Part shown: positions 3,019 to 22,196 of the stretch, in pieces | Position numbering within the stretch: the stretch's first letter is position 1 | Layout: every line of letters starts with the position of its first letter | Source: Baffinella frigidus | Lineage: Eukaryota; Cryptophyceae; Cryptomonadales; Baffinellaceae | DNA: 22,254 nucleotides | NCBI GenBank assembly: GCA_026770585.1 | Contig: MU647757.1 | Span: forward strand, 26,134 to 48,387 | Direction of reading: 5' to 3' | Translations under genes and position numbers: made by a program | The notes under the pieces: model-generated | The model's input: only the letters and a program-made list of their open reading frames with translations | What the model was told of the DNA's origin: nothing | Database searches by the model: none

Positions 3019-6000
3019 ATGGCGGGGCGGGGCCACCTACGGGGGAAAGCGCGGCGATCGTCGTCAGCCTCGGCGGCGCTTGGAGCGATGTGGTCTTACG
3101 TTGTCCTGAAAGGAGGGGTGCTCGCTATCCTCATCTACAAGGACAGCGACCTGAAGGACGCGCTCACGCTGCACGTGATCGGAGTCACGTACACCACAGC
3201 GTTCCTCCTCCTCTTCACCATCTCCACCATTCTCTTCCTCGTCGTCTCGCGTTCCGACCCGGTTCGATCCCCTCGAGCAGCGCCCTAACACTAGAGCAGC
3301 GCCACGCCCCCCTGTTCTGCGAGGCAGGCAAGAATCGAGTGGGAGAAATGCGGAATAGCGCTGGTCAGAACCTGTCTAATCCACAGCTCTGATACTTTGC
3401 AAATGAGGGCGGTTCTGGAACTCTCTCGGTTGCAGACTGCGCAAAGGTCGCCGCACCCATCCTTTCCAAGTGAGAGAACATTTCTGAGGTGATTTGATTC
3501 TTGGGGTGTGCAGGGCTTCGTGGTAGCAGACGACGAAAAAACGCTGCTGGAGGATGGCTCTGAGCGCTCTGGCAAGCGGAGCAGAGCACAGGAAAGAGGT
3601 GGCGGGGAGAGCAGCCGCCTGGACACATCGGTAGGAGGGGAACTGCCGGGCGGAGCAAACGCACCCGGTTGGGCGCTTCAAACCATCGACGTTGAGCTGA
3701 GCGTGGTAAGTGTCCCTGGGCCTCCGCCCTGCATTTTTTCACACAGCCTGCCGCAGCGCCCCTCACCAGCCACAAGGGTGCCGCACCTTATCGAGCGCGT
3801 TGCTGGTGCCTCTCCAATTAATCGCGCGTGGCGTGGCAGCTTCCGGAGCTCGGAGCACGTGCACGTGGCGGGCACGCGAGCGCCGGGCAACGCGACGAGA
3901 ACGACGACGGGGGGCACCGAGCAGAGAGCGACGAAGACGAGATCCATCCGGAGCTACGGATCGACCTGAGCGCGGTGCACCACGGAAGCGGGGGGGCGGG
4001 AGGGTGCAGCGACGGGGCGAGCGTGGCGAGTAGCAGCGCCGAGGCTTCTGGGGTGCGATCCTGCGAGATCTGCCTCTGCCGCCAGCCCCTCAGGACCAAG
4101 CATTGCTATGACTGCGGCCGGTGCATGCCTACACCCTGAACCCTAACCCCTAAACCCTGCACCCCTAAACCTTAAACCCTACACCCTCAACCCTCAACCC
4201 TCAACCCTAAAGCTTAACACCTCAACCCTGAACCCTGTAGCCTAAACCCTAAATCTTAAAACCTATACCCTCAAACCTACACCCTACACCCTAAACCCTA
4301 AACCCTAAACCCTAAACCCTAAGCCCTAAAAGTGGTCACGACCAAGCAAGCAGTGGTGTCATGTGCGGTGCGGTGATTCACAGGCTGGTGTCAACCAGAT
4401 GCAGCCCAGAGGTTCCCACGCCCAGAGCTTCCCACGCCACCACTGGGGAACAATCCAAACCCTTAACTCCAAACCCTAATCTCTAAACCCTGAACCCTAA
4501 ACCCTAAACCCTAAACCCTACACCCTAAATCCCAAACCCTACACCTTAAACCTGCAACCCTAAACCCTTAATCCTACACCGTAAACCGTAAACCCCATTC
4601 CAAGATGCACCTACCCGGTAGGCATGGAGGTAGGGCGAGGCGTTGCAACGGTGACGCGGGAGGTGGGGTGCTGTTGTGTTGTTGGCAGGTGCGTGCACAC
4701 GTTCGACCATCACTGCTTCTGGATCGGCCGGTGCGTGCCAACCCTACACCCCACACCCTACACCCTACACCCTAAACCCTAAACCCTAAACCCTAAACCC
4801 CACACCCTAAACCCTAAACCCTAAACCCTAAACCCTAAACCCCAAACCTTAAACACGAAGCCCTAAACCCTAAAAACTAAACCCTAAACCCTAAACCCTA
4901 AACCCTAAACCCTGATCCACTAAACCCTGCACCCTAAACCTCAAACCAGGTGCGTCGGCGAGCGGAACAGGAGACTGTTCTGGTGGTATCTATTCACGGA
5001 GCTGATGACCCTCCTCTGGGCGGATGCTATCTGCGCGTCCACTTTCGTGAAAGTCACCACTGGCTCGGTCCCTCCCCGCACCCGCACTGGCTCGGTGCCT
5101 TCCCCCACCCCCACTTCTGACTCGGTCGCTGCCAGCCCTTCTCCCACTTCTCACCCCCACTGCCTCGGTCTCTGTCCTGCGCAACCAGGCTGCTCACCCC
5201 CCCACTCCTGACTCGGTCTCTGCCAGCCGTGCCCCTGCTGCTCACACCCGCACCTTCCACCGCCTCAGTCCTTGCACTGCCTCAGTCCTCCACTGCCTCA
5301 GTCAATCCCGTGCCCACACTTGATGCTGACCCCCTTGGTCACTGCCCTGGCCTCACTGCTGACCCCCGCACTGCCTCGGTCTCTGTCAGCGCAGCGCAGC
5401 CACGATGCGCACCCCAGCACCCTCCGCTGGTTTGGTCACCCCCCTGCCCATCCATTCTGCACGAGCGATGGACCACCGCTCGTTCCTCCTTTCACGCGGT
5501 TGATTCAGCTCGAACGGTGCGGATGAAAGAACAGAGCGCTTCGAGTCATCTACTGAACCGCACACCTGAACCCCACCCCCAATCCCTGCTCCCCACACCT
5601 TAGATCCTCCACCCTAAACTCTGATCCCTGACGGTGGGTGGCCGTGGGCAACGGACTGGTTGTTGACCAACCTGACTCCTGAACCCAAACCCCTAATCAC
5701 TGAACCTTACACCCTCCACTCTGAACCCTAAACACTAAACCCTAAACCCTAAACTCTAAACCCTAAAACCCAAACCACAAACCCCAAACCCCAAACCCCA
5801 AACCCGAAGCCCGAAACCCGAAACCCCCAACCCTCAACCCTCAACCCCCAACCCCCAACCCCACACCCCACACCCTAGACCCTAGACCCGAAACCCTAGA
5901 CCCTGAACCCTGAACCCTAAACCCTAAACCCTGAACCCTAAACCCTAAACCCTAAACCCTAAACCCTAAACCATTTTGTGGTACTAAATGGTACGTAGCC

Positions 6001-9000
6001 ACCTGGTGAGACGCAGCTCCTCGTCCTTTCCACGTCCGGTCCGAATACAAACTGTCGGATCCTGGTACAAAATTCAAAATAAAACCCCCAACTAAAATTC
6101 CGACTTATGACCTTGCGTGGCCTCGCTGCCATATTTTTTTGTCTTTCCTTCACCCCCAGCCCTAAACCCTTAACGCTAGACCCTACACCCCGGCGCTCGA
6201 CGGTCGGTTGCAGTGGGCAATCCACCCGTTGCGACTGGTTGTTCAACCCCACACCTCAACCCAAACCCCTCATCACTGAACCCCACACCCTCAGCCCTAC
6301 ACCTTAGACTCTCAACCCTAAATCCTTCTTCTTCTTTACCGCTCACGATACAGGTCGTAGATAGAGGCCCTTACGCCTTGCGTTGAGTGATACACGTCTA
6401 TGCGCCTTACGAACAGAAACCCTAAACGCTGGCGTGTTGGGTGGCAGTGGGCAACGGACTGGTTTCTGGTGAACCTGCCCAACCTCGCGGCGATCGTGGT
6501 GTGCCTCTCCTTCACCCTCATGCTCGCCACCCTCTGGTACCCCCCCCTCTTCTTGACTCGTATGCTCGCCGCTCGTTGGCAGAAGCCAAGCAGTCCCCAC
6601 CCTCACCCTCATGCTTGCCGCTCTCTGGCACCCTCATGCTTGCCGCTCTCTGCCACCCTCATGCTTGCCGCTCTCTGGCACCCTCATGCTTGCCGCTCTC
6701 TGGCACCCTCATGCTTGCCGCTCTCTGCCACCCTCATGCTTGCCGCTCTCTGGCACCCTCATGCTTGCCGCTCTCTGCCACCCTCATGCTTGCCGCTCTC
6801 TGGCACCAACCCCTCACCGGATGCACCCCCACGCTCGCCGCGCGTTGGTAGAACCCAGACAGCCCCCTCTCGCTCATGCTCGCCACTCTTTGGTATCGAC
6901 CCCTGACCTTGACCCTCATGCCCACCACTCTCTGATAAGTCCTCTCGCGCATGCTCGTTGCTCTCTGATACCAACCTCTCGCCTTCACCCTGATGCTCGC
7001 CACCCTATGGTAGCACCCAACCAGTCCTCTCCTCCGATTCGCGTGCCGCACCCGGAGACCACTCCTCGCATGCACCCTGATGCTCGTCGCTCGTCACGCA
7101 TTGGTACAACCCAACCAGTCCTCACCCTCATGCTTGCCGCTCTCTGGTACCACCCCCTCCTCTTGACCCCCATGCACGCCGCGCGTTGGTAGAACCTGAG
7201 CAGTCCTCTCGCTCGTGCTCGGCCCTCTCTGGTACCCAGGCCTTGCCGCCCATCATCGCACCTCTCTGCTACTATCCTGCATCATCGCAGCTCTCTGCTA
7301 CTATCCTGCCCCTCGCACCTCCTGGTTTAGGGTTCAGAGTTTAGGGTGTAGGGTTTAGGGTTTAGGGTTTAGGGTTTAGGGTTTAGGGTTTACGGTTTAC
7401 GGGTTTAGGGGTTTGGGTTTAGGGTTTAGGACTCCTGCTCCTGGGTCGCGTGGGAGGCTGAGTGTTGCTGCTGGATCGTGCTGGTCCCGGGCTGAGTGCT
7501 CCTCCTGGGCACACGTGCATTTGTGCCTCTTGTGCCTCTTGTGCCGCGTGCCTGAGTGCTGCTGCTGGGTCGCTCTTGCTCGTGTCTGAATGCTGATCCC
7601 AACGCGCGCGGTTGCCCCTAGGTCGAGCGAATGTCGCTGAGTGCTGCTCCCGGTGGTGGTGGCTGAGAGCTGATCCTGTGTCGCGATGGATGATGGGGGG
7701 CACGTTCTTCGAGGCGTACCTGAGAGCTGCTCTTGGGTCGCTCTGGTGGCCACGACTCCTGAGACAAACGATGACGCGTGGCTGAGTGGAGGTGGTGGGG
7801 CGCGGCAGGTTGTTTGGTGAGGCAGATGACGCAGTGAGGCAGTGCCTGCGTCATCTGCCCCTGCTTCGCGCGGGTGCGTGTCTCGAAGCACGTCTCTAGG
7901 TGTCTCGAAAGACGTCTCTCGGTGAGTGGTGATCCTCACGCGCGGGGTGGATGGGGGGGCAGCTTCTTCCAGACGTGCCTCATCTGCTGCTGGGTCGCGC
8001 TGGTACCAGGCTGGGTGCTGAACCTGGGGCGCGGTTGTGGCTGAATGGGGGCGCGCTCGTTGGTTGCTGGCAGGTTCTTCCAGACGTACCTCATCGGCAC
8101 GGGACAGACCTCCTGGGAAGTCCTCCGCTCTCGATCCATCTTCTACCTCCGCGAGGTCTCCCCTACCCGCCACACCAGAATGCTAGATGCGCCTATTTTA
8201 AACGGATGTGCTTTTTAAAATAGGCATTTGTGTAGTAACTTTCGTTGATTGGTCACGTAACTAGCCATGCGTAGGCCAGGTGCGAGGTTAGAACACCCTA
8301 TCCTGGTACAAATATTTGCAACCCCAAATGTAAGTAGGACCCTCCAGGATTCTGGAGTTGCTCTCTCGCCCCGTGATGCAGAAAGGCAACGTGAGAGGAG
8401 GACCTACTTGGACGCGACTCGGTACACGCACCCTTTCTGTGTGACCCCTCTTCTCCCGCCCCGAGGCGGGCCCGTCCCAGGCCTGCGTCCGCACACCGGT
8501 CTCACCCCACCCCTCTTTCTCCTCTCACCCATCTCCTCTCGCCCCGAGATGGCCCCTTCCCAAGGTCCGCACTCACGGAGGTCTCCCTCCACACCCTTCT
8601 CGCCCCTCATGCAGATAGCCAACGTGAGAGGAGGACTTACTCAGACGCCACTGAGTACACGTGACCTTTCTGCAGGACCCCTCTCATCTCGCCCCGAGGC
8701 GGGCCCATCCTAGGCTGCAACCTCTCAGGGGGCTCACCGCACCTCTCTCACCCCTCTCCTCTTGCCCTGAGGCGGGCCCGTGCCAGCAGGCACTCTCGAC
8801 ATTTGCTCTCGGGCATATGTTGCCATGCGATGTATGCATTTTTGAAGGGCGTATACGCCTACCGACATTGAAATGACTTGTGACAATATAAAGAGTGTGT
8901 GCCAGCCAATGGTTGCACTCTGCCAGTCCAGCGTTCACTGGCAGCGTTGCTGATATGGGTTCATCAAGAGTAAGGACACGCACCATCCCTAGGGTGGTCC

Positions 9001-9900
9001 TATTCTCCTAGGTATAGTCCTACTGTAGGACCCTGCAGGGACATCTAGACTACAAGAACTCAGAACGTGAGAACCCGCGCCGGATTTGCGGCCTGCGTGT
9101 TCTTAATTTAGTACCAGAGCGTTGACTAAATCGCGCGTTTAGTCAACCCTCAGGGACTAATTTCAGAACACAGACACCCACCGCGCCTCGACCAAGAGTG
9201 TTGTAAGAGCCCAGATAACCGTGTAGGTCGCTGCGCGTCCTTATTCGCGAGTAACCCCTGCACAGGGGTACCTCGCTTATCCCTTAGGTGACCAGTAAGC
9301 TCAAACACCCTACGGTAGGGCACTAGGACCTGCCTAGGGCGAGTCAGGGTGAATATTCACCCTATGGGCACTTGAGGGATAAGAAACGCCCGCCCCCCCT
9401 AGGACCGCCACAGGGCCTTAAGCATAGCCCTACTGTAGAGTCCTAGGAGGAGGAGCTTTCTTATGAGCGATGCACCCTTGTAGGCGAGGTATCCCCGACA
9501 GTGGTCATGCGCACCTAGGAATAGCCCTACCGTAGGAGACCCTAGAGCGGGGCGTGTCCTGACTCGCGAGTCACCCCTCAACAGGGTTACCTCGCTCATA
9601 AGAAAGCGCCCCCCCCTCGGACCCTATAGTAGGCCTATCCCTCAAGTGGTGGCCCTGCGGGCGGCAAGGCCTATGGTGATCCGTGTGGAGGGGGGCGCTC
9701 TCTGACCCGCGAGCAACCCCTGGCAACAGGTACCGGAGCACGTGTACCCCTTCTCACGCGGCTGCTGTCTCAACATCTCCTCCGTCTGCCTCCGTGACCC
9801 CAAGCGCAAAGCCCCGCACGAATGGCCCATGCCGGCAGAGCCGTACGGGGACGCACAGCGCTTCTGGTGGATCGAGAACGAGCACTGGAGCTGCTTTTGA
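3019..9900 (+). CDS. DHHC-type protein S-acyltransferase (palmitoyltransferase)
   Basis: Eight exons join in frame to 398 residues: 3019-3261, 3514-3705, 3840-4120, 4689-4730, 4950-5046, 6448-6536, 8074-8155, 9730-9900. Family knowledge: these integral membrane enzymes attach palmitate to cytosolic cysteines through an acyl-cysteine intermediate. Seen: a membrane segment at about 53-76 followed by DPGFV (80-84), the DPG motif. A Ser/Gly/Asp/Glu-rich linker leads to the zinc-binding cysteine-rich domain starting at C220 (CEIC, then HCYDC) and ending in DHHC at 245-248; C248 is the expected catalytic residue. TM3 (about 262-280) and TM4 (about 291-314) follow, then TSWE (327-330), matching the TTxE motif, and YPFSRGCCLN (348-357), matching the PaCCT region with its conserved Asn. 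Stop TGA at 9898. Length is typical. The ATG at 3019 has A at -3 and G at +4; extra upstream exons are possible. Intron phases are 0,0,2,2,0,2,0. The donor of exon 7 (GTCTCC) and the start codon are the least certain points. Confidence 0.9.
4137..4329 (+). repeat. Degenerate CCCTAAA telomere-type array, DHHC intron 3 (5' part)
   Basis: Many near-copies of CCCTAAA with changes such as CCCTACA, CCCTCAA and CCTTAAA, becoming more regular toward 4285-4325. It starts about 16 nt after the exon 3 donor. Confidence 0.92.
4337..4374 (+). repeat. Decayed copy of DHHC exon 3 end plus donor
   Basis: The segment ACCAAGCA...GTCATGTGCGG..TGCGGTG resembles the last 30 bases of exon 3 and its donor (ACCAAGCATTGCTATGAC then TGCGGCCGGTGC at 4093-4124). 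The match is imperfect and the call tentative, but it fits the pattern of exon-edge copies elsewhere in the window. Confidence 0.4.
4455..4600 (+). repeat. Degenerate CCCTAAA array, DHHC intron 3 (3' part)
   Basis: A second block of CCCTAAA-like units in the same intron, separated from the first by about 125 nt of unique sequence. Confidence 0.9.
4740..4948 (+). repeat. CCCTAAA array filling DHHC intron 4
   Basis: Intron 4 (4731-4949, 219 nt) is almost entirely CCCTAAA-like repeats from just after the donor (GTGCGTGCC) to the acceptor (AACCAG). There is little other sequence in the intron. Confidence 0.93.
5055..5400 (+). repeat. Minisatellite in DHHC intron 5
   Basis: Imperfect tandem units resembling CACTGCCTCGGTCTCTGTC (variants CACTGGCTCGGTCCCT, TTCTGACTCGGTCGCT, CACTGCCTCAGTC). 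The array starts within about 10 nt of the exon 5 donor. Open frames across it are repeat artefacts. Confidence 0.8.
5632..5675 (+). repeat. Fossil copy 1 of DHHC exon 6 start
   Basis: TGGGCAACGGACTGGTT at 5645-5661 is identical to the first bases of exon 6 at 6448, and the preceding GGGTGGC also matches. The acceptor AG is mutated (GGCCG instead of GGCAG), so this copy should not be spliced. Its downstream flank (AACCCAAACCCCTAATCACTG) is shared with fossil copy 2. Confidence 0.75.
5693..5972 (+). repeat. CCCTAAA-type array, DHHC intron 5
   Basis: Telomere-type repeats that drift through CCCCAAA, CCCGAAA and CCCTCAA variants before returning to exact CCCTAAA units at 5920-5970. Confidence 0.9.
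6160..6325 (+). repeat. Degenerate CCCTAAA array containing fossil copy 2 of exon 6 start
   Basis: CCCTAAA-like units surround a decayed copy of the exon 6 acceptor region at about 6200-6250 (TTGCAG then TGGGCAA, then GACTGGTTGTTCAAC). The AG is kept but about 10 extra bases interrupt the copied exon start. Confidence 0.75.
6537..7225 (+). repeat. Tandem repeats derived from the 3' end of DHHC exon 6
   Basis: Exon 6 ends with ATGCTCGCCACCCTCTG before donor GTACCC. The intron continues with many relatives of this segment: eight regular 25-bp units starting at 6611, 6636, 6661, 6686, 6711, 6736, 6761 and 6786 (ATGCTTGCCGCTCTCTG then GC or CC), then looser, longer units to about 7225. Some distal units again carry CTCTGGTACC (near 7143 and 7219), so they repeat the donor itself. 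The unit length is not a multiple of three, so the open frames here are not protein coding. Confidence 0.85.
7320..7432 (-). repeat. TTTAGGG-orientation telomere-type block, DHHC intron 6
   Basis: Near-perfect TTTAGGG units on the plus strand, opposite in orientation to the blocks in introns 3-5. It sits between the exon-6-derived repeats (left) and the exon-7-derived repeats (right). Confidence 0.93.
7433..8072 (+). repeat. Tandem repeats derived from the acceptor and 5' end of DHHC exon 7
   Basis: Exon 7 begins GGCAG|GTTCTTCCAGACGTACCTCATC. A close copy lies at 7959-7985 (GGCAGCTTCTTCCAGACG then TGCCTCATC) and a more decayed one at 7700-7722 (GCACGTTCTTCGAGGCG then TACCTGA). Each is followed by a GCTGCTGGGTCGCGCTGGT-like segment that recurs many times from 7437 onward. 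Open frames on both strands here are repeat artefacts. Confidence 0.8.
8184..8228. repeat. Short inverted repeat (hairpin)
   Basis: GCCTATTTTAAA and TTTAAAATAGGC flank a loop of about 10 nt, just after the exon 7 donor in intron 7. It may be a tiny foldback remnant. Confidence 0.6.
8340..8790 (+). repeat. Tandem duplication with a period near 232 bp, DHHC intron 7
   Basis: The segment starting GTGAGAGGAGGAC at 8391 recurs at 8623 with matching downstream sequence (GTACAC, CTTTCTG, CCCCGAGGCGGGCCC). A CCCGAGGCGGGCCC sub-repeat appears again near 8770. No coding content is supported. Confidence 0.75.
9262..9481. mobile_element. MITE family A copy, interrupted by a family B element
   Basis: The left end reads CAGGGGTACCTCGCT and the right end CTTATGAGCGATGCACCCTTG, the inverted ends of family A. 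The core carries CCTAGGACC and CTACTGTAG-type motifs. The left arm is split by a 100-bp family B element at 9280-9379; removing it restores the arm (CCTCGCT-TAAGAAACGCC). Confidence 0.75.
9280..9379. mobile_element. MITE family B, 100 bp, TA target duplication
   Basis: The inverted ends are TCCCTTAGGTG and CACTTGAGGGA, flanked on both sides by TA (9278-9279 and 9380-9381), as for Tc1/mariner-type Stowaway elements. The interior has ACCCTACGGTAGGG and a GGTGAATATTCACC palindrome. It is nested inside a family A copy, so it inserted later. Confidence 0.7.
9482..9725. mobile_element. Degenerate family A MITEs abutting the exon 8 acceptor
   Basis: Two diverged, adjacent family A units. The second runs from about 9583 (AGGGTTACCTCGCTCATAAG) to about 9721 (GCGAGCAACCCCTG) and contains a family-B-like TATCCCTCAAGTG. 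Its right end lies only about 8 nt before the splice acceptor of DHHC exon 8 (CAACAG|GTACC). Confidence 0.6.
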
Positions 9901-10793
9901 GGAAAGGTATGGGTACATGTAGGTAACTCGATGGGGAACCCCGATGTAGTGGGGAACTCCGATGTCCAGTAGGTCACGTGCCCCCCGGCAGCGAGGAGGT
10001 TCGGGAGAGGTCACCTCGCTGACGCTACCGGGGCACTTCGCTCATGAGAAACCGCCCCCCCCAAGGACCCCACAGTAGGACCATGCCTAGCTAGGGCCCT
10101 ATGGCGGTCCTTAGGGCGGGGCGGTTTCTCGTGAGCGAGGTACCCCTGTAGCTGACAAGCAAGATCCTAGCGGCGCACGGCGCGCTGGGAACGTCGCGAA
10201 GCTCGCGCATGTATTCCGCGCGCACGCGCAGGCTTATGTGGGTATCTAGGCTCTAAGGGCATCTAAGGACGCAGGACGTCAACGTAGATTCACTTAGGCC
10301 TCCGAAGTAGATTCACTTAGGCCTTCTAGGTAGAGAGTGTTGACTGGAAACTACGGCCCTTCTGAGGGCTGCCCATAGCGTTCAGAGGTTAGGGTGTAAG
10401 GTTTAACCCTACACCTGAATGAGGCAATGGTGAGGAGATGGAGGGTTGCGGTTACTGAGTGGCATGGTTCAGCCCTCGGAAGGAGGGGGCTGGTGTACAA
10501 TTGTGGTGGAGTGTAAATGAAGAGTTGGATTCACGTGCCGCACGCTCAAAACGAGACCCACTCAATACATTGATGCCCGATTCACTGTACAACTTCTCTT
10601 TCGGTTTCCAATTTCGGGGTTTCCGTTGCTTGGGGTGGACAATTTTTTTCTTCCCAAGTGGGAGCGCGATAGAACCGCTACTCTTCCAGACCAAGCCACG
10701 CAGCGGACTGTGTAGTACAGGTGCACAATAAGACCACACAGAACCCATCTCAGAATATTTACCATGCATCCACACACCCGCTCGCCCGAGAAA
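9901..10793. other. Intergenic region between convergent genes
   Basis: This holds the 3' flanks of the DHHC gene and of the minus-strand gene. Besides a family A MITE at 10029-10148, I see a repeated GTAGATTCACTTAGGCCT at 10283-10325 and a tiny pair of telomere-like units near 10390-10415 in opposite orientations. No gene is supported. Confidence 0.5.
10029..10148. mobile_element. MITE family A copy
   Basis: The inverted ends are CCGGGGCACTTCGCTCATGA and TCGTGAGCGAGGTACCCCTG, with GAAACCGCCCC facing GGGGCGGTTTC. The core has CCCACAGTAGGACC and GGTCCTTAGGG. Length is about 120 bp, like the intact copy at 11347. Confidence 0.8.
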
Positions 10794-13050
10794 TCAATGT
10801 TCCCGCGCAACGTCGCCCTTCTCCTTATCCCAGGGGGCTGTGTGCCCCCACAGCCCCGCGAGGAACGTGGACTGCTTCCCTCCGAGAATGTGGGCGCGCT
10901 TCTCCGCATCCCGCAGCTCCGAACTCTTCCTCCCCCCCGAGCCCGAGTCCGCGTCCTCGCCAGAACCCTGGCGCGCCTTCGGGTGCAGCTTCGCGGCACG
11001 CTCCGTGACCAGCAGCGCCTTCTCCTTGGCCTCATCAGCATCTTCCAATTGATCATAGCTATCCTGGGCCGTCAAGCGCACCTTGGGCTTGTGCGCCCCC
11101 CCCTCCTGCAGCGCGCGCGCGCTGGCACCCTCGCGACCCTCGCGCTTGGCAGGCCCCCCGTTGGCCTCGCGCGTCAGCTCTCGCCGCTCGCGCGCGTACT
11201 TGCTCTGCGTCCGCGTGTGCGCCGACTTCTTTTGCTCCTCCTTCGCCGCGTTTTCCCGATCCACTGCCTCCTGCCACACACCAACCCCCGCACACCGTCA
11301 GCCGCCAACCCCCGCACCCCTCCAGCCACCAACCCCCGCAACGTGTACAGGGGTACCTCGCTCATAAGAAACCGCCCCACCCCTAGGACAACCATAGGCC
11401 CCAATGCATAGGGCTACAGTAGGGTCCTAGGGGGGGGCGGTTTCTTATGAGCGAGGTATCCCTGTCAGGCAACCCCTCCTCGCAAGCACCCACTGTGACC
11501 CTGATCACAGACTCGGGCGCGGCGCGGCGCGGAGGAGGCATCCGTCAGCACTGCTTCCGGGAGGGGGGCTGGCAGGCAGAAAGTGGCGTGGCTGGGGCGT
11601 CAGTTTGTCAGGGTCTGACTGGAGGTAGCACTGGCCCCACGAGCGGGACTGGCAGAAAGGGGCGTGGCTTGGCGAGGCTGGGCGTGGGTCAGGCTGTCAG
11701 CAAGTAAGGCAGGCAGGCAGGCAAGCAGGCAGGCAGGCAAGGGCTTACCCGGAGGCGGTGGATGTCTGTGATGTGCTCCTGGTACTCGCGCTGCTCTCTC
11801 TCCGACTTGGCATGCACCGCGTCGGGCGCGCGGATGTCTTTGACCACCTTCTGCACCGCCTCGCGCGCCTCGGCCTTGGCGTTGTGCCCCTCCTTGGCGA
11901 GGGCGACCGCGCGTTGGGCCACGCTCTCAGCATCCTTGGCCATGGACACGCTCTTCGCGCGCAGCTCCGCGTAGCCGTGGTGCCCGTTGAGCTGGGCGTC
12001 GGCCGTGTTCTTCTGCAGCTTCTTCAGCAGCAGCGAGTCCCCCTCCATGCGCCGCTTCGCCTTCTTCGACTTGGCGACAAGACCGTCCACCCTGTGCCGC
12101 AGCCGCTCGTTCGTGGGATGCTCCGACAGCTGCGTCACCTCCTTGGCCACCGCGAACTCGGCCGTGCGGTACACCTTGTGGTCGTGCCTGGCCAGCTTCA
12201 GCGCGATCTCCACGGGCTTCTCGGCCGCCACGAACCGCGTGCGCGCCTCGTCGCTCTCGGCACGCAGGTTCTGCGCCTTCCGCCGCATCTCCGACGCCTT
12301 CGCCACGTCCGACTGCGCTTTGCTCTCATCCACATCCCCCGTCTGCTCCTGCTTCTTGGCCACCAGAAGCTTCTTCTTCAACGCGAGCTCCTGCGTGTCC
12401 ACCGCCTTGTCCATCTTCCCCAGCAGCGTCTTCTCCTTCTCCGCCTCCCCACGCAGTTTGCGGATTTCCTTGTGCACCTTCTTGGGCCCGTCGGCCACAA
12501 TTGCCGCGATGTCCTTCTTGATCTCCTGCTGCACCAGCATCTCCTGCTGCGTCTTCGAATCCCCACCCATGCCCTTCAGCGCCGCGTCCTGTCCCCCCCC
12601 TCGCAGCATCTCCTGCAGCGACACAAAACCTGGTGGTCCTTGTGTCCCCTGCCCCACCACGAGTACCATCACCACCAGCAGCAACGCCGCGCTCGCCGCC
12701 GCCAGCGCCCGGTGCGTCCGGCGCCTCCCGCTGCCCTCCTCCCCGGACCGCTGCAAAGAGGGAAGAGACGTCAGCGTCACACAGCACACACACACGTCTC
12801 GCTACCACGCGCTGCCCTCGAGCAAACAACACACCAAAGGAGCTGCTTGCCAGGGACCGCCGGGTGACCAAAGGCGGCAAACAAGCGAAGGGGGTAACTC
12901 GAAGCTGGCACCACAGCCGGTGCTCAGAAAATGGCGTTGCACGGAGATGGCAGGGGGGACTACCGTGTATGCCACGAACTCCACCGTGGATGCCATGCCC
13001 TCCTCAGGCCGCGTCCGTGCAGCGGTGGCCTCTGACTCAGCCCCGCCCAT
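10794..13050 (-). CDS. Single-pass membrane protein with long charged coiled-coil-like region, function unknown
   Basis: Three minus-strand exons join in phase 0 to 521 residues: 13050-12964, 12750-11749, 11270-10794. Donors are ACG|GTAGTC and CGG|GTAAGC; acceptors are CTCTTTGCAG and GTGTGGCAG. The ATG at 13050 has G at -3 and +4; an in-frame ATG at 13128 is possible but falls in sequence near the palindrome. After a 43-residue N-terminus with RRR just before the membrane comes one hydrophobic segment (about 44-62, with LLLVVMVLVV), so a signal anchor or type II topology is likely. The remaining 450 residues are rich in Lys, Glu, Ala, Arg and Gln with heptad-like spacing and no recognised domain. 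Two long plus-strand open frames across exon 2 are its GC-rich antisense shadows. I infer a membrane-anchored structural or tethering protein and assign no function. Confidence 0.7.
11285..11340 (-). repeat. Tandem repeat beside the exon 3 acceptor of the minus-strand gene
   Basis: Three imperfect units containing CCAACCCCCGCA (plus strand) lie directly upstream, in gene orientation, of the acceptor at 11271. This is another acceptor-side tandem expansion. Confidence 0.65.
11347..11465. mobile_element. Intact MITE family A copy (119 bp)
   Basis: The best-preserved copy. The left arm ACAGGGGTACCTCGCTCATA continues as AGAAACCGCCCC. The right arm is its complement, GGGGCGGTTTCTTATGAGCG then AGGTATCCCTGT. 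The inner parts TAGGAC and GTCCTAGG also pair. The loop holds GGGCTACAGTAGGG. It sits in intron 2 of the minus-strand gene, carries no frame, and its target-site duplication is unclear. Confidence 0.88.
11565..11745 (-). repeat. Donor-side repeats of minus-strand intron 2
   Basis: A (GCAG/GCAA)n tetranucleotide run at 11706-11740 lies directly after the donor in gene orientation. Beyond it are repeated segments around GGCAGAAAGTGGCGTGGCT and GGCAGAAAGGGGCGTGGCT. Confidence 0.75.
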
Positions 13051-13155
13051 CGCTATTTTCGACACCACAAAAATTTGGTTGACTGATTTCAAATGTGAAC
13101 AACACTCCAAAGTTGACAAGGCATTCAACTTTAGGCGGTGGTTGACATTTCATCT

Positions 13156-13647
13156 CCATACAAGTATTAATTAATTGCTTTCACCCCCTTGGATTTCGGG
13201 GTTTTGCCTGAAAATATTTTCAAAATTTATCCGCTCAAAAAGTTAGGAACGGCATCTGAAAGGGCTCGAAAAGTTTTTGCTTGGATGTGCTCTCAGATTT
13301 TTGCTGAGCCATCGGGAAGGACCCCTTCGGAGGGGCGCAAAATGACGATCCTGTGAAAATTACTACACAGTTTCAAAAAGATTCATTTTAAAATGGAAAT
13401 CAAATGAATTGTAAAAATGCGATTTGGAAGGCTGTGTAGTAATTTTCATACAAACCGACATTTTGCGCCCCTCCGAAGGGGCCCTTCCCGATGGCTCAGC
13501 AAAAATCTGAGAGCACATCCAAGCAAAAACTTCCCGAGCCCTTTCAGATGCCGTTCCTAACTTTTTGAGCGGATAAATTTTGAAAATATTTTCAGGCAAA
13601 ACCCCGAAATCCAAGGGGGTGAAAGCAATTAATTAATACTTGTATGG
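13156..13647. mobile_element. Large near-perfect palindrome (foldback element)
   Basis: Arms 13156-13370 and 13432-13647 (about 215 bp each) are reverse complements with only a few differences, around a 61-bp AT-rich loop with its own ATTCATTT/AAATGAAT hairpin. The outer ends are CCATACAAGTATTAATTAAT and its complement. The inner arm ends are GAAAATTACTACACAG and its complement. ACATT occurs just outside both ends (13145-13149 and 13653-13657), a possible 5-bp target duplication. It is AT-richer than its surroundings and has no coding frame. It lies between two divergent genes, so it occupies their shared promoter region. Confidence 0.85.
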
Positions 13648-13705
13648 ATATTACATTGGGGCGATCGCTGTTCGCAGCTTCACAAGTTCAGAGAACGAGC
13701 GTCGA

Positions 13706-16700
13706 ATGGCTATGGCGAACGCACGCCCCCATCTTGCGGGCGCGTGGTTCGTAGAGGATGCCCCCGAGTCATGGATTCCAGAGTCCATGGCCGGGTCGCG
13801 TTCTTCCTCAGCCGTAGAGGACGGCGGGGGGCTGCCCAGCTGGGGGGACATCGCCAGCGTCGGCGAGGGCCTGATGGCGAAGCTGGCGCCCAAAAAATCT
13901 GTGCGGCGCGTGAGCACGTTTGGCTCTACGGCGCCGAACGTGAACGTGCCGGGTCTCGGGGAGAAGCTGGAGGCGATGGCGGAGAACCTTCCAGAGAATG
14001 AGACGGAGGCACAACAGCGGACGGCCGTCTCCGTGCTCCTTGTTATCCAGACCGACGTGTTCCAGGTCAGCACACCACCGCGCAGCCGCAACCGGTGATG
14101 ACGTTTGGTGCGCAGTGATCCTGTCGCGGGCTGCCGCGTCCCGTTTAGTCTGCTTCTCGCAGCCTGCCTGAGTGAGGCGTCCTGTCGATGTGCAGCACGT
14201 GGTCGTCATGGGCAAGGCCAACGGACAGAAACACGGCAACTTGGAGGCACGTCCCCCACCCCCGATGCGATCAACAAGGGTGGCGCACCTTTGTGCGCTT
14301 CGTTTTCGTCCGAGGCACCCTGTGTTGTGTTTCGCATCATGCCAGAGAGAGAGTCAGGGGCGGCGGGTGCCAGGCTAAACCTTAACCCTAAACCCTCAAC
14401 CATAAAGCAGGCGCACGTGCGAGAGGCGTTGACGGACATCGACTGGGTCCCGCGATACGACCAGGTCCCGCGCGATTGATTTCATGATAATTTATTTAAT
14501 GAGGAGCCACGTTAAAGGGAGGCAGAGCTAGAATTGACAGACTGCGGAGGAGTCTCGTGCCTTGCCTTCCCAGACCATTCTAGCTCTGCCTCTCTTCACC
14601 TGGGCTCCTCATCAAATATATTCTGATGCTCGTTGTGCTGCAGCGTTTGTACGGGTCCTGGTGTAAATTTATTTACTGAAGAGCCCAGACTAACTGAAGC
14701 AGAGGCAGGAATGTTGACGCCCGTTTCGTAATTTTTGTGCGCAGACCCGGACTAGCGACGCAGTTATTGCATTGGCACGTCAGTTCCAGCTCTTATCTCT
14801 ATTATTACACTGCTAGCCAGGATATTTTACCTTGAGTCAACTTGGACGATCCTTTGCAAAAAGTTTTCATTTCGTTTAGATGGACCTGCTCCCAGAGCAG
14901 GCATTTGACTTCAGTCACTGATTTTGAGGGGTAGTTGACTGCGGCGACATGATTTGACCGGCAGTGTATGATGATGGTAGGAGACGAGGGAGACGAAGTG
15001 TGGGATATAATTCTGGGAGACGAACGTCACTTGAAACAACCAAAATTAGGGGGCGCGTAGATGAGGATCAGCGATGCGGTCAGAGCATTTTCAGTCACGT
15101 CAGTTTCGGAGTGGGGCTGCACAGATCGTCAATGATTAACGAGACAGTCAGTGCATTGTCAGTGCAGCACCGTGATGTCATTTCCGGCGTTGTAATGGTA
15201 GGAGACGAGGAAGACCAAGACCAAGTGTGGGGTACAATTGCGGGAGACCAAAGTTAACCAAAACAACCAAATTATGCGTGGGCGCAGATCCGGATCAGCG
15301 ACGGGGAGCATTTCCGGATTCGCGAGGAGCAATGCGAGATGTCGGTGCGCGTGACGTTCTATGCGACCGCCGATCCTGGGCCCATGGCTCCCCCTGCCAA
15401 GGTCCACCCCTACCCTACAAGGCCCAACCCCTCAAACTGGCCGACTCCGATCTCCACACCCCGGCCCGTCTCCCGCCCCTCCTCTCTTGCCAAGTCCTAG
15501 CTCTGCCTCAGTTATGATTCGCCCCTCATTAAATGCATTTGGACCAGGACTCCGTACCAACGTACTGGTACAAAGCGCATCTACATATATTTAATGCGAA
15601 GCCCAGAATAACTGAGATAGAGCCATAAGTCCTAATCCCTAGAGCAGGCCAAGGTGCGTGGCCTGCGGCCGATCTAGATTAGAGATGTACCGCTGATCAC
15701 ACCAGACCAGTGCTGGGCAGTTGATGTGTTGCTGGGAGTGAGAATGGCGTGGCTACCCTGTCAGGCGTTGGCAGCTGGCCTGATCGGACAGTCGCGAGAT
15801 CCGTCTTCGCGCCTCCGCACCGCGGTCACCTCTTCCCACCTCAGCCAGCCAGCCAGTCAGTCAGTCAGTCAGTCAGTCAGTGAGCGAGGGAGTGAGTGAG
15901 CCAGCCAGTCAGCCAGTCAGCCAGTCAGCCAGTCAGCCAGTCAGTCAGTCAGTCAGCCAGTCAGTGCGTGAGTCATTGAGCCAGCTAGCCACCCATCCAG
16001 GCATTGAGTGAGTCACAGACTGAGTCAGTTAGACTTTCCTGCGACGCGGCAAGGCACGCGACGCACGCAGATCCTCTCGTCACGCGGGATGCCGGACACG
16101 AGGGCGCGAATTGGCGTGCGAACTGTACAGCAATCACTTCTCTCACGCAGTCGAGCCCGCCAGAGGGCCCGTCCTCCTCCCACGGCCCCCACTCCAACGC
16201 GGCTGCTCAGAGGTTCTGGACTGTCGCGTACCGCAACCTTTTCTGCGCAGCCAAGGTGTGGTTTCTGGTTTCTGAATTGATGATGGGTGGTGAGCAGACG
16301 CAAAGCCTCTTCGAGATCGTCAATGCTCAGGTCTGCTCCTCACCCCCACCCTCCCTCACCTATCCCTTAACTGGCGAGTAGTCCCTACGCCCTACCGTAG
16401 GGCCCTAGGACCTGCCTAGGACTTCTTGGCGGTCAATTTTGACCGCCTCGCCGTTTAAGGGATTCAGGGGTACCTTGCTCATAAGAACCAGCCTCCCCCT
16501 AGGACCCTACAGTAGGCCTATGCCTAGGGCCCTATGATGGTCCTAGGGAGGGGGGTGGTTTCTTGTGAGCGAGGTACCCCTATAGCTCTGCCTGAGACAA
16601 ACTGGGCTCGCCACAAAAGCATTGCAGTTGTCCTGGTGTACTGGAGTTTCTGCTCTAAATGTATTTTATGGCGAGTCCAGTTTTACTGAGGCAGAGATAG

Positions 16701-16944: not shown

Positions 16945-16954
16945 GTCTCCCCCC

Positions 16955-17195
16955 CTACACCCCTACACCCTGAACCCTAAACCCTAAACCCTAAACCCCA
17001 AACGCTAAACCCTGAACGCTAAACCCTCAAACCTAAAACCTAAAGCTCAAACCCTCAATCCTAAAGCCTAAAGCCTAAACCTCGAACCTTAAACCCTAAA
17101 ACCTAAACGCCAAACCCCAAACCCTAAACACTAAACCCTAAACCCTAAACCCTAAACCCTAAACCCTAAACCCCAAACCCTGAACCCTGAACACC
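16955..17195 (+). repeat. CCCTAAA-type array after exon 6 of the unknown gene
   Basis: Starts about 10 nt after the donor CAG|GTCTCC at 16945. Exact CCCTAAA units lie near 16975-16995 and 17135-17175, with diverged units between (CCTAAAG, CCTCAAA). Confidence 0.9.
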
Positions 17196-18617: not shown

Positions 18618-21600
18618 ATGGATCCCAGACGCTGGCGGGGTGTTGGGCCAACAGCAGGCCTGCTGTTGGTTGTGGGAGTGGCTGCACCGGCAGCAGTGAC
18701 AAGTCTCGAGGTAAGCGATGTCGCCGAAATCTTCTTGGCTGTGCATCCCACCACACACTGATCCTCGGGGGGGCTCACCTGAGCAGGCAGACGCAGCGGA
18801 TCGGTTCTTCAACGTGTCGAGGTTCGATGCTGGAATCCCGTTCACAGCGGGAAAGGTACTCGCCACAGCTCAAGTCCACGCTCCGTGCTGCTGGTGTCCG
18901 CCCTGGATGACGGTGGCGCCGCGCAGCAAGTGACGCAGGGCCCACGCAGGCACACTGGTCGGAGCGTTGCCTGCGAGAATGCAAGCAAGCCTGCTTGGAT
19001 GGGAATCCACCCCCGAGAACGCGCATCATGAACTTCCTAGGATGGAGCAAGGACGAGGATTGCACCTACCGCTGCACCCACGCGGTGGGCTTCCCCCGCT
19101 CTGCGCCCCCTGCTGTTTCATGCACGGAACACCCCGGCCCAGCACTGCGTCACCGGCGACTCACCGCGCCAGCGGAACCCACCCGCCGCCCTGTTCTCAG
19201 CGAACTTCTCCAAACCCAGCCGACGCCCTGCTCTCAGCCAACTTCTCTGCCCTGGAATGCCCCGGAGTCGCTCGGCATGCCACCCCAGCAAGGGTTTCGC
19301 GGTGCTGAAGAGCAGCGGTGCGGGGGCAGTGTCTGGGCAGGGACGTGCAGATGGGAGGACGGGTGTGGAAGTACAGAGGGCGGTGGCCGCACACCAGAAT
19401 CTGTGGGGTCAATGAACCTGCCGCCGTGGTCTTCTCGCTCGCCAACCTCGCCGCACATCTGGTACCCCCCTACCAGCGTTGCCGCCCCCGACTGGCCCCA
19501 TCTGGTCCCTTGCCCAGCCCGCCCCTGGCAGTCTCAAGCACACCCCGCCCTGGAGGTTGGCGGCAGGGCCTGGCTTGGCGATCGGGCGCGCGATCTCCCT
19601 CGTGGCACGCTCTTGCAACATCAAATATGGCTGATAGCAGGGCGCCGGGTGGGGGTTCTCTTGTAGGCTGGAGCGCTGCAGCTTCGCAAATAAAAGATCT
19701 ACCCCCGAACGGCTGCAAATATGGCTTCACACAGGGTGGCGGATGTGGGTGCTCTTGCAGGCGGGAGCGGTGCAGCTTCTGAGCGTGGCGTGCGGGCATC
19801 GCTGGCAGGCGGGATCGGTGCAACTTCGCAACGCGCAACGAGACGCCGCCCTTCTTCTCGCCTCTTCTGGTTGCCCCCCTCGCATCCACCAACGTGGTCT
19901 GGTATGGTTTGGGGTTTGGGGTTTAGGGTTTAGGATTTGAGGTTGCTCGCGCTCGCCTCCACTGAGATGTGAGGGTGGTGGTCACCACCCTCGCTCTACC
20001 TCTACCATCTGCTTCTTCTTGCCTCTTCTGGTTGCTCCCCCTCGGATCCACGAAGATGGCCTTGTAGGGTGTAGGGTGTAGGCTTCAGGATTTGGGGTGT
20101 AGGGTTTGGGGTTTAGGTTTTGGGGTTTGGGGTTTGTGGTTCGGGGGTAAGGGTTTAGGGTGTGGGGTTTTCACCCCAAGCCCTAAACCCTAAACCCTAA
20201 ACCCCCCACCCTAATCCCTAAACCCTAAACTCTAAAACCTGAACCCTAAATTCGAAACCCTACACCTTCAACCCCAGCCCCCAAACCCCAAACCCCAAAC
20301 CCCAAACCCCAAAGCCCTTGGTGGCTGGCACCTCGACAGGAGGGCTAGACGAGGCGTATCCGCATGCTGAAAGGCTGGGGATGGTGGGGTGGGTGTGGAG
20401 TGTCGCGTGGGTGTCATCAGCTGTCTTTCACACTCGCGATAACTGGCTCACTGAGAGGTCCGAGACACCCTAACCCTTGGACCAGGGTCAACCGCGTTGT
20501 TGCCATGTCAGTCGGAGAGAGCACATGTGTTTGTTCGCAGTGAGCGAGAGAGAGCGAGAGAGAGAGGCAGGGAGGGAGGGAGGGAGAGAAATAGAGAGGG
20601 AAAGCGAGCGAGCGAGAGATAGAGAGGGTGAGAGGGAGAGGGGGGAGGAGAGAGAGAGAGGACACGTGTTGGGGTTGGGAGGCAGCCAGCCACCCTGTGA
20701 GCCTCGACGACGTGGTTGCCATGTCTGCTTTTGGTCCTTGTCTTGCAAACACTCCTCAGAAGGGAACATGTGGTGCCCATGTTGGTTCCGGTAATCAACG
20801 CACTCTTCTCTCTGTCTGCGCCATTCAGCGCCACCCCTCCTCGTACCTAACTACCTACCTACCTACCAACCTGCCTGCCTACCTACCTACCTACCTACCT
20901 ACCAACCTACCTACCTACCTACCTACCAACCTACCTACCTGCCTAACTACCCACCCACCTATCTACCTACCTACCAACCTACCAACCTACCCACCTACCT
21001 ACCTGGGCCTGGGAGGTATGAGTGCACCACCAGCAAGCACGTGGACATCCTGCCGGCCCTGACCTGCGTGGCCCGTCCTCCCACTGGGTGCGTGGCCCGT
21101 CCTCCCACTGGGTGCCACTGGTCACCAGCCGTCTTTGGTACCCAGCCGTGTTTCTGAGAGGTCGCAGATGGCAACGAGGCGAGTGCCCCGAAGTGCAATC
21201 TCAGCAGGGTCCCGCGGTAGCTACCGCCTGCTGCCAGGTTGCGTTTCTCAACCCTAAACCCAAACCTCAAAACCCTGAGTCCTAAACCTCAACTCCTAAA
21301 CCCTAAACCGTAAACCCTGAACCCTGAACCCTGAACCCCAAACCCTAAACCCTACACCCTAACCCCCTACCCCAAACCCTAATCCCTTACCCCTTACCCC
21401 TTACCCCTGAACCCTAAACCCTGAACTCTAAACTCTGCACCCCAACCCCTAACCCCTACACCCTAAACCCTAAACCCAAACCTCAAAACCCTGAATCCCA
21501 ACCCCTAACTCCTAAACCCTCAAACTTAAACCCTCAACCCTAAACCCTGAACCCTGAACCCTGAACCCTGATTCCGAATCCAGAAACCTTAAAACCCTAA

Positions 21601-22196
21601 GTCCTAAACACCAAACCCTCAACCCTCAACCCTCAACCCTCAACCCTATACCATGAAGCCTCAACTCTGCACCCTCAACCCTGCTGCCGAGTCGGGTTGA
21701 CCAGCAAGACGGCAGGTTGCCCTGTGTGAGCGGCCTCTGAATGGGTCTCCCCTCTCTGAGCTCTGAGTGGGTGGTGCTGGCAGGTTTGACTACTTCCTAG
21801 GTCAGGTTGGACTACTTCACGAGTGTGAGAGGGCACTGAGGGGGTGGCACTGGTTGATACTGGCACGCTGGACTACTTGCTAGGTCAGATTTGACTACTC
21901 TCCGAGTGTGAGCGGCATCTGAGTGGGTGGCACGGGTACTGGCAGGTTGGACTACTTCCTAGGCAACACAGCCATGGCGTGGATGACCTATTCTGGCTTC
22001 GTCCGCGCTGGTCTGCCTCCCGCCTCCCTCCCTCCCTGGGTCCCGCCCCGCCTCCCCGTGCAGGGAGGCTGGTTCATGCATCAACCACCATCATCGCGGG
22101 TCTGGCCCCTTTCACCCTTCGTAGGTTGGAGGTTGGACTACTTTCTCGGCAACACAGCCATGGCCTGGATGACCTATTCTGGCTTTGTCCGCGCTG
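18618..22196 (+). CDS. PGAP3: PER1/PGAP3-family GPI-anchor phospholipase A2, 3' partial
   Basis: Exons 18618-18710, 18787-18855, 18950-19084, 19351-19461, 19809-19869, 20340-20457, then 21946-22010 or its twin 22132-22196, give 217 residues in frame; the rest lies beyond the window (family length roughly 320-350). Family knowledge: PER1/PGAP3 is a multi-pass ER/Golgi enzyme of the CREST hydrolase superfamily that removes an acyl chain during GPI-lipid remodelling. Seen: a signal peptide (MDPRRW, then GLLLVVGVAA), a lumenal Cys-rich part (CLRECKQAC; later DEDCTYRC), then KYRGRW and NEPAAVVFSLANLAAHL, the family signature and first membrane segment. Exon 6 gives SSAVFHTRD (182-190) with the S-x3-H pair S183/H187, followed by LTE-R-LDYF across the junction, where D198 is the conserved Asp. 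The C-terminal HxxxH motif must lie outside. Exon 5 is variable in sequence and is called from phase (0 to 1) and position. Confidence 0.88.
19640..19808 (+). repeat. Tandem copies of the acceptor and start of PGAP3 exon 5
   Basis: The motif CTTGTAG|GCTGGAGCGCTGCAGC then TTCGCAA (about 19660), CTTGCAG|GCGGGAGCGGTGCAGC then TTC (about 19754) and the real CTGGCAG|GCGGGATCGGTGCAAC then TTCGCAA (19802) are three successive versions of the same acceptor plus exon start. GGCTGCAAATATGGCT-type spacer sequence also repeats. Confidence 0.75.
19910..19940 (-). repeat. Short TTTAGGG-orientation block
   Basis: GGTTTGGGGTTTAGGGTTTA and neighbouring units lie about 40 nt after the exon 5 donor in PGAP3 intron 5. 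Confidence 0.85.
20008..20050 (+). repeat. Copy of PGAP3 exon 5 end plus donor
   Basis: CTTCTTCTTGCCTCTTCTG|GTTGCTCCCCCTCGGATCCAC duplicates the exon 5 end and donor at 19850-19890 (CTTCTTCTCGCCTCTTCTG|GTTGCCCCCCTCGCATCCAC), about 160 bp downstream inside the intron. Confidence 0.85.
20060..20312. repeat. Inverted telomere-type repeats, TTTAGGG then CCCTAAA
   Basis: From 20060 to about 20168 the plus strand carries TTTAGGG/TTTGGGG-type units. After GTTTTCACCCC it switches to CCCTAAA and CCCCAAA units until 20312. This is the orientation produced by a head-to-head telomere fusion, in miniature and degenerate form, within PGAP3 intron 5. Confidence 0.85.
20535..20662 (+). repeat. GA-rich polypurine tract
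   Basis: A run of GAGA and GGGA units near the start of PGAP3 intron 6. Open frames across it are low complexity. Confidence 0.9.
20843..21005 (+). repeat. CCTA tetranucleotide microsatellite
   Basis: About 160 bp of CCTA/CCAA units inside PGAP3 intron 6. Confidence 0.93.
21247..21690 (+). repeat. Long degenerate CCCTAAA array, PGAP3 intron 6
   Basis: About 440 bp of telomere-type units with many variants (CCCTGAA, CCCCTTA, CCCTCAA), the longest such block here. Several sub-blocks repeat each other, for example CCCAAACCTCAAAACCCTGA near 21258 and again near 21474. Confidence 0.92.
21700..21945 (+). repeat. Tandem copies of the acceptor and start of PGAP3 exon 7
   Basis: Variants of GGCAG|GTTGGACTACTTCCTAGG occur at about 21779, 21803, 21860 and 21883 before the real exon at 21946. 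Intervening GAGTGTGAG, CTGAGTGGGTGGCAC segments repeat with a period of roughly 85-140 bp. The copies have mutated acceptors or frame-breaking changes. Confidence 0.8.
21946..22010 (+). other. PGAP3 exon 7, copy a (65 nt)
   Basis: Acceptor ACTGGCAG, donor GCTG|GTCTGC. After one base completing Arg196, it encodes LDYFLGNTAMAWMTYSGFVR and Ala, then one base of the next codon. It contains the conserved Asp of LDYF. Confidence 0.85.
22132..22196 (+). other. PGAP3 exon 7, copy b (65 nt)
   Basis: Same length, same phases and the same 21 residues as copy a, with four third-position differences (TTC/TTT, CTA/CTC, GCG/GCC, TTC/TTT). Acceptor TTGGAG, with another AG six bases earlier (TTCGTAG); donor GCTG|GTCTCC. 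Including both copies would shift the frame and meet a TGA within copy b. Confidence 0.82.

Follow-up and report, generated by a model that had tools for sequence, protein, structure and literature searches.

The 22,254-nucleotide stretch analysed here (henceforth the window) lies at positions 26134-48387 of contig MU647757.1, a 60.6-kb contig of assembly GCA_026770585.1 from the Arctic cryptophyte alga Baffinella frigidus. It carries a DHHC palmitoyltransferase gene, a PGAP3 gene and, between them, a third gene to which no family was assigned. Introns of DHHC and PGAP3 hold telomere-type repeat together with second copies of the exon edges that border them. A preliminary description of this DNA, made from the letters alone, had proposed that decayed copies of exon ends with their donor, and of exon starts with their acceptor, recur in the introns of all three genes. 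It suggested for them one genome-wide process of intron growth or birth, such as error-prone or template-switching repair of breaks near splice junctions. These claims were followed up in 83 introns of seven genes.

Gene models, sampled introns and splice sites

The assembly that was searched comprises 382 Mb in 1364 contigs. The published draft of strain CCMP2293, built with AllPathsLG from Illumina reads, is larger (534.5 Mb in 10,880 scaffolds; PMC9756366), and the words 'intron' and 'telomer' are both absent from the main text of that publication. The curated set consists of DHHC and PGAP3 in the window (13 introns) and five genes elsewhere (70 introns), namely CCT1 (17), CCT4 (7), CCT6 (4), a myosin gene (18) and a HECT-like gene (24), the last two names being our own readings of the translations. 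The CCT loci were picked by family search, while the myosin and HECT-like loci were drawn from 15 arbitrary 10-kb stretches, 6 of which are all N.

Gene models were derived from spliced protein alignment, with some edges adjusted by hand. Two micro-exons and one uncertain intron (4602-5850 of reversed L022) of CCT6 were excluded, and one of its exon starts was repositioned manually; CCT4 lost its first block, of 506 bp, and a pseudo-exon of 6 nt, with two edges placed manually. The last two introns given by the aligner for CCT1 were replaced by a single GC-AG intron. One pseudo-exon was dropped and one exon end shifted in the myosin gene, and one exon end was shifted and one exon added in the HECT-like gene. 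An ab initio gene finder predicted ten exons for DHHC, five of them matching the eight confirmed ones (one with an added stop codon); as it was misled by the edge copies, it was replaced by spliced alignment.

The spliced DHHC protein is a 98% match to a Baffinella frigidus protein at NCBI and also matches a protein of the MMETSP0987 transcriptome. Both this transcriptome and the genome presumably represent strain CCMP2293. All 7 DHHC junctions are found in the transcript-derived protein P0002, which has a frame-shifted stretch yet still crosses junctions 3|4 and 4|5. For PGAP3, the MMETSP transcript P0022 backs four junctions and a fifth that skips exon 6, an exon assigned from frame and resemblance only. 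In this sole PGAP3 transcript found, 19869 is joined to 21946 and a stop codon follows.

Of the 83 introns, 79 have a GT donor and 4 a GC donor, while 79 end in CAG and 4 in TAG. The preceding exon ends with G in 78/83 and the following one opens with G in 70/83; beyond G|GT, donors show almost no consensus at any of the curated loci. Three of the 4 introns with a GC donor are followed by an exon that likewise begins with GC.

Exon-edge copies in long introns

Two queries were made for each intron, one joining the final 30 bp of the left exon to 10 bp of intron, the other joining 12 bp of intron to the initial 30 bp of the right exon, and each was searched in the remainder of its own intron. 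The 100 controls for every edge were 40 block shuffles of its own intron and 60 stretches, matched in length, from other genes' introns. The preliminary description had named such an alignment against shuffled controls as its own check, and similarity to the flanking edges exceeded all controls in 34/83 introns (22 donor and 18 acceptor edges, with about 0.8 expected per side). Copies occur in 5/13 introns of the window, 14/28 of the CCT genes, 10/18 of the myosin gene and 5/24 of the HECT-like gene, that is, in 29/70 introns of the five genes outside the window.

Presence of a copy is tied to intron length. From the shortest to the longest length class, copies are found in 0/19, 3/23, 6/11, 11/14 and 14/16 introns; none of the 19 introns below 200 bp has one, and 25/30 introns of at least 400 bp do. 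Copies are also specific to the exon edge. On the left side, the last 40 bp of the exon are copied in 19/82 cases, the segment 41-80 bp from the junction in 3/43 and that at 81-120 bp in 0/23, and the corresponding figures from the first 40 bp of the right exon inwards are 16/82, 3/43 and 0/23. Other exons of the same gene, used as queries, gave 0/75 and 1/74, and inverted edge copies were seen in 3/166. In total, 64 copies were found at 40 edges, of which 13 carry two to eight, the maximum of eight being at DHHC exon 6. Ungapped copies comprise 7-75 bp of exon, mostly with the splice dinucleotide, and the junction of a copy lies a median of 196 bp from the working one.

Transcript-derived proteins allowed 12 junctions to be checked, and in every case the true edges are joined and the copies are unused. 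Four of these junctions adjoin copy-bearing introns (DHHC 5, DHHC 6, PGAP3 4 and the fused PGAP3 5-6). The preliminary description would have been undone by copies that are ordinary alternative exons, which these transcripts do not indicate. A function as alternative exon ends or splicing regulators would agree with the coding-like divergence of the copies described below, with the retention of GT/GC or AG in most of them (by eye) and with the skipping of exon 6 in the PGAP3 transcript. Against it stand the use of the true edges at every supported junction, the small number of left copies directly preceded by an acceptor (by eye) and the occurrence of several copies in multi-copy decayed series, and we consider such a function most improbable.

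Within the window, most intervals named earlier hold copies that score above controls: eight donor-edge copies of DHHC exon 6 at 6537-7225, an acceptor-edge copy of DHHC exon 6 at 5632-5675, two acceptor-edge copies each at 7690-7985 and 19640-19808, one donor-edge copy at 20008-20050 and three acceptor-edge copies at 21700-21945. A further copy at 6200-6250 is weakly supported, being a second copy with a score of 25 and 7 exon bp aligned. The interval 14964-15087 does overlap an 89-bp repeat (14991-15079), in a gene outside the curated, control-tested set. The copy suspected at 4337-4374 found no support, the left edge of DHHC intron 3 scoring 19 against a control maximum of 20. Two features had been overlooked: repeats of the end of DHHC exon 5 with its donor from about 5057, one of which exceeds controls, and a second, whole copy of PGAP3 exon 7 (22130-22207). 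P0022 joins at, and ends in, the copy at 21946 rather than that at 22130.

Features of the window and of the 146-bp element (the latter in locus coordinates)
Feature	Position	Strand	Remark
DHHC palmitoyltransferase gene	3019..9897	+	spliced alignment of P0001
DHHC exons	3019-3261, 3514-3705, 3840-4120, 4689-4730, 4950-5067, 6448-6536, 8074-8155, 9730-9897	+	
DHHC intron 3	4121..4688	+	telomere-type arrays; start gtgcat, next exon start GTGCGT
DHHC intron 4	4731..4949	+	nearly filled by CCCTAAA-type array (4740-4940)
DHHC exon 5 end and donor, copy	5068..5249	+	CACTGGCTCG|GTCCCT at 5085-5110, within tandem-repeat run
Acceptor and start of DHHC exon 6, copy	5635..5674	+	
Telomere-type array, DHHC intron 5	5678..5972	+	
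DHHC exon 6 end and donor, copies	6537..7225	+	eight scoring above controls
Telomere-type array, rarer orientation	7324..7430	-	G-strand in sense
Acceptor and start of DHHC exon 7, two copies	7690..7987	+	clearest at 7958-7987
Acceptor region and exon start repeat, unidentified gene	14991..15079	+	74% to 15218-15306; exon read by eye
Telomere-type array	16961..17192	+	downstream of the unidentified gene's exons
PGAP3 gene	18618..22015	+	spliced alignment, transcript P0022
PGAP3 exons	18618-18710, 18787-18855, 18950-19084, 19330-19461, 19809-19869, 20421-20457, 21946-22015	+	
Acceptor and start of PGAP3 exon 5, two copies	19660..19779	+	
PGAP3 exon 5 end and donor, copy	20012..20040	+	
Two telomere-type arrays back to back	20065..20318	.	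opposite orientation
Telomere-type array, PGAP3 intron 6	21250..21682	+	
Acceptor and start of PGAP3 exon 7, three copies	21773..21945	+	
Second full copy of PGAP3 exon 7	22130..22207	+	91% over 78 nt
146-bp element resembling a miniature inverted-repeat transposable element (MITE)	L022:9112-9251		also L033, L037, L021, L026, L027

Tandem repetition accompanies several of these features. Periods of 27 and 48 bp continue to 5249 in DHHC intron 5, and a 25-bp array of 8 copies (6604-6807) lies within the donor-edge copies of DHHC exon 6. By eye, a long inverted repeat (13133-13660) was seen upstream of the unidentified gene, as was a palindromic dispersed element with ends like TATGAGCGAGGTACCCCT at 9241-9750, 10020-10150, 11345-11470 and 16450-16590; the latter also matches other loci and resembles a MITE family. 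The opposed arrays at 20065-20318 resemble a fusion of two telomeric tracts. An Rfam scan of the window returned zero matches.

Telomere-type repeat in introns

Telomere-type repeat, underrated in the preliminary description, is strand-biased and common in the sampled introns. Under a strict rule (18 of 21 positions), an array with the C-strand (CCCTAAA) in sense is present in 61/83 introns, a G-strand (TTTAGGG) array in 5 and an array in 0.8 dinucleotide-shuffled introns. By group, strict arrays are found in 17/28 CCT, 18/18 myosin and 21/24 HECT-like introns; in the window, where the inner part of the introns had been called often telomere-type, arrays do occur, but just 5/13 introns have one by this rule. 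A looser rule (11 of 14), passed by 68/83 introns, was rejected as unspecific, 39.8/83 shuffled introns passing as well; arrays delimited by it lie a median of 6 and 8 nt from the splice sites. Exons contain zero arrays under a looser rule. Of all intron sequence, 22% lies in strict C-strand arrays and 1.0% in strict G-strand ones, and CCCTAAA is the most frequent CCC-initial heptamer in the arrays. Self-matching of introns is 0.435 at lag 7, compared with 0.349 and 0.351 at lags 6 and 8. Neighbouring arrays are on the same strand in 85/92 cases (16 loci, 123 kb non-N, some loci adjacent), a count that excludes loci fetched by repeat pattern, L019 (which overlaps the window) and all-N loci.

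Neither GT nor AG occurs in CCCTAAA repeats, whereas both are found in TTTAGGG repeats. Lacking these dinucleotides, a C-strand repeat is splicing-inert and can be transcribed without creating false splice sites, which would give selection a simple reason to favour that strand. The median strict C-strand fraction is 49% in the 49 introns without edge copies and 10% in the 34 with copies.

A minority of introns begin like the exon that follows them. Identity over at least 6 bases between intron start and next exon start is seen in 4/83 introns (0.30 expected by permutation), with prefixes of 6-8 bp in DHHC intron 4, where GTGCGT forms a 6-bp direct repeat, CCT6 intron 3, myosin intron 12 and HECT-like intron 5. 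Over positions 3-6 of the same comparison there are 107 matches where 87.4 are expected (p 0.005). Comparison of intron end with previous exon end gave 185 matches against 185.0 expected at positions 3-10, and a slight excess at positions 2-5 (123 vs 111.3, p 0.019). Short direct repeats around an insert would be expected of intron gain by double-strand-break repair; the prefix repeats fit insertion with a short duplication, in this minority of introns.

Possible origin and lengthening of the introns

Our preferred reading, held tentatively and at somewhat less than even confidence, is that telomere-type DNA supplies much of the intron sequence and that exon-edge duplications lengthen the introns. 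Two layers would be superimposed. In the first, many introns, chiefly those without copies, consist mostly of degenerate CCCTAAA-type repeat between G|GT and CAG|G. Telomere-type DNA would enter genes at breaks, in the manner of mammalian short interstitial telomeric sequences, and would be retained where it is spliced out; a few introns open with the same 6-8 bp as the exon that follows, which is what insertion with a short target duplication would leave. In the second layer, events at or beside splice junctions would add telomere-type repeat, a minisatellite or a MITE and leave 7-75 bp of exon edge in a second copy that includes the splice dinucleotide and, in some cases, part of the intron. 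Such duplications would be tolerated since the original splice sites go on functioning: with the donor and acceptor of the true edges staying in use, the protein would be unchanged and the inner copies would decay.

We infer that breaks followed by fill-in or template-switching repair would have made both the insertions and the copies, and that the repeat would have made introns rather than invaded them. The interpretation in the preliminary description is supported in part: its shared design turned up again in unrelated genes on other scaffolds, with a link to intron length. The repair mechanism suggested there is plausible, with precedents elsewhere. Telomeric repeats are described as inserted at breaks, with flank duplication in 3/66 horse loci (PMC7215372), and interstitial telomeric DNA is described as a fork barrier repaired by break-induced replication and template switching (PMC6410037).

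Several observations weigh against the preferred reading, beginning with the repeat itself. A scrambled unit, CCTCAAA, passes the strict rule in 25/83 introns and, with a loose threshold, accounts for 32% of intron sequence compared with 39.5% for CCCTAAA, indicating that the arrays are degenerate. A strict array is absent from 22/83 introns, the median strict fraction of the window introns is 0, and the myosin and HECT-like loci had been selected for being richest in arrays; two other arbitrary loci with at least 7 kb of sequence contain zero arrays. Among 18 scaffold ends read, 8 are all N and 0 of the other 10 end in (TTTAGGG)n. One end finishes in (CCCCAAA)n, and no chromosome end was recognised among them.

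Two further readings, both rather doubtful in our estimation, concern the origin of this repeat. Telomeric repeat may be raw material of spliceosomal introns, inserted at G|GT, with the C-strand orientation alone kept because it is free of GT and AG and splices cleanly; the fragile arrays would then provoke breaks at junctions and duplication of exon edges. Conversely, the repeat may have invaded and replaced the interiors of older introns by slippage or recombination, the edge copies being a by-product of instability. Such an invasion is consistent with the degeneracy of the arrays, with a median start, by the strict rule, 25 nt past the donor and a median end 22 nt short of the acceptor, and with a clear terminal direct repeat in just 4/83 introns. 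It accords less well with arrays that start within 30 nt of the donor in 34/61 introns and end within 30 nt of the acceptor in 34/61, or with the 24/49 copy-free introns that are at least half strict repeat. Being about the repeat, invasion can be combined with either account of the copies.

On the side of the copies, the ungapped alignments had led us to read them as nearly always stopping at the junction, a reading that fails under gapped alignment: on the intron side, matches stop within 6 bp of the junction in 14/40 cases and at 7-19 bp in 6/40, and 20/40 bring along at least 20 bp of intron. As gapped copies so often include intron, a junction-bound process is not general. The 50 bp past the dinucleotide are unusually similar in 6/40 when compared with the starts and ends of other introns. 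We likewise abandoned the notion that copies lie against an array and so mark the original intron, array abutment being equal for copies and working edges (10/22 for both on one side, 11/18 for both on the other). Local duplication is moreover frequent away from edges: a second copy in the same intron was found for 25/114 interior windows free of telomere-type repeat in introns of at least 400 bp, and a nearby second copy for 17/175 random windows from seven sampled loci.

These figures favour a duplication-prone genome, in which short local direct duplications arise everywhere and the copies need no process linked to junctions or telomeres. Edge-touching duplicates would do no harm as long as the true edge is still the one spliced, and they would stay recognisable for longer because selection freezes their exon partner. 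The window's tandem repeats, which have many different periods, agree with this picture. What such a genome accounts for less readily is that edges in introns of at least 400 bp have copies in 27/58 tests, about twice the richness of the interior windows, and that the 14 copies just mentioned end so close to the junction; conservation of the exon partner may account for part or all of the twofold excess. Given frequent local duplication and the intron carried in half of the copies, much of the pattern may reflect a generic process. We regard this explanation as a serious contender, only slightly less likely than the preferred reading, and generic duplication accounts for nearly as much as a repair process would.

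The sequence of the copies raises a different difficulty for the preferred reading, since exon-to-copy differences are more coding-like than decay would give. Across 475 codons, differences at codon positions 1-3 number 36, 23 and 90, and the ratio of nonsynonymous to synonymous codons is 60:75 for the best copies and 106:112 for all copies, where a dead copy compared with a living exon would by our estimate give about 1.2-1.5 (half of the neutral 2.4-3.1). The window genes alone give a neutral-looking 26:16, and the excess is confined to the other loci. The source might be alleles that were misassembled, a template switch to a homologue or a period of use. Second gene copies were considered as well, but the exon checked for this, DHHC exon 3, has a single genome match (match counts being lower bounds).

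Misassembly would mean that diverged haplotypes or repeated contig ends had been joined inside difficult introns. Both the coding-like differences and the making of the published draft from Illumina reads with AllPathsLG (PMC9756366) speak for it, and the reliance on short reads calls for caution. With two haplotypes, no edge should have more than one extra copy and every copy should be intact; here, 13 of the 40 edges have two to eight, and 19 alignment gaps and 1 stop occur among the 64 copies. This multiplicity, together with the single match of DHHC exon 3 (again a lower bound), argues against plain misassembly. In addition, neither the window nor the myosin locus has any N. The reading of one protein, P0024, runs on through PGAP3 intron 3 and reaches the first of the decayed acceptors in intron 4; it is listed with three contigs, the longest of 1603 bp, though it spans no complete edge copy. 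A search with an antisense reading frame for independent contigs across the DHHC edge copies found no match. On balance we consider an assembly artefact improbable.

Sequence inserted between edge and copy bears on a mobile origin. The 146-bp MITE-like element, with inverted ends CTAGCTCTG / CAGAGCCAG, has 19 matches in the sampled sequence. In two introns, HECT-like 10 and myosin 13, it separates the working donor edge from the copy. There it is no more than 2 bp away from the copy, and its gap to the repeat of the working edge is 0 bp in one case and 28 bp in the other. An introner-like or MITE family making long target duplications, with the edge copies as its footprints, would produce this arrangement. 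Yet 11/13 near-full-length copies of the element are without a long flanking repeat, so that the element itself is not the maker of the edge repeats, a point that also tells against the preferred reading; long target duplication was accordingly rejected as a property of this MITE. Between edge and copy, an AT-rich minisatellite is found in myosin introns 1 and 4 and telomere-type repeat in several others. We judge such a family highly improbable as the source of the copies.

Among described systems, intron gain by inserted DNA, as reviewed in PMC3443670, likewise has an insert spliced as an intron, sometimes with short terminal direct repeats; it differs from the present case in the strand-biased telomere-type insert, the rarity of terminal repeats and the additional edge duplications found here. 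Tandem genomic duplication of AGGT-bearing segments, treated in the same review, resembles our case in that exon sequence is duplicated beside splice sites and in that a few introns start like the next exon. Unlike that model, the intron body is here mostly not a duplicate of exon and the copies are mixed with other sequence; intron starts copy the next exon start in a minority only, and intron ends do not copy the previous exon end, which they resemble in just a few junction-adjacent bases.

Introners, as presented in PMC9860276, similarly place one type of sequence in a splice-compatible orientation in the introns of unrelated genes, and the predominance of one repeat in one orientation across the sampled introns corresponds to this. 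In contrast to introners, the repeat is a degenerate heptamer array with no defined transposon ends and no general target duplication. Of the transposon hallmarks, terminal inverted repeats and target duplications of 3-9 bp, few short direct repeats were found and no array ends were recognised by reading, no other search for them having been made. Short interstitial telomeric sequences (PMC7215372) share the internal telomere-type repeat and, at times, a flank duplication; they are described from scattered loci, whereas here the repeat makes up a large share of intron sequence, is strand-biased and is coupled to splicing. Rogers and Bendich (2025; PMC11782384) report direct repeats of 4-30 bp, identified by eye, in all 213 introns examined and, as we do, take border direct repeats as insertion scars; in our permutation-tested comparison such repeats are mostly absent and are distinct from the longer exon-edge copies. 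No report of telomere-type introns in algae, or of such exon-edge copies, was recognised among the open-access papers searched, judged mostly from listed entries.

The source of new introns, and the reason that some genomes come to be full of them, are long-standing questions. In the genes sampled here, most introns share one simple sequence with a built-in reason for splicing neutrality, and their growth leaves readable scars. The idea of an inert filler, a repeat harmless through its missing dinucleotides, is open to test at the bench, and comparisons between strains could let intron birth and lengthening be watched directly. Should telomeric repeat indeed prove to be the raw material, introns in Baffinella frigidus would be born and grown from chromosome-end sequence.

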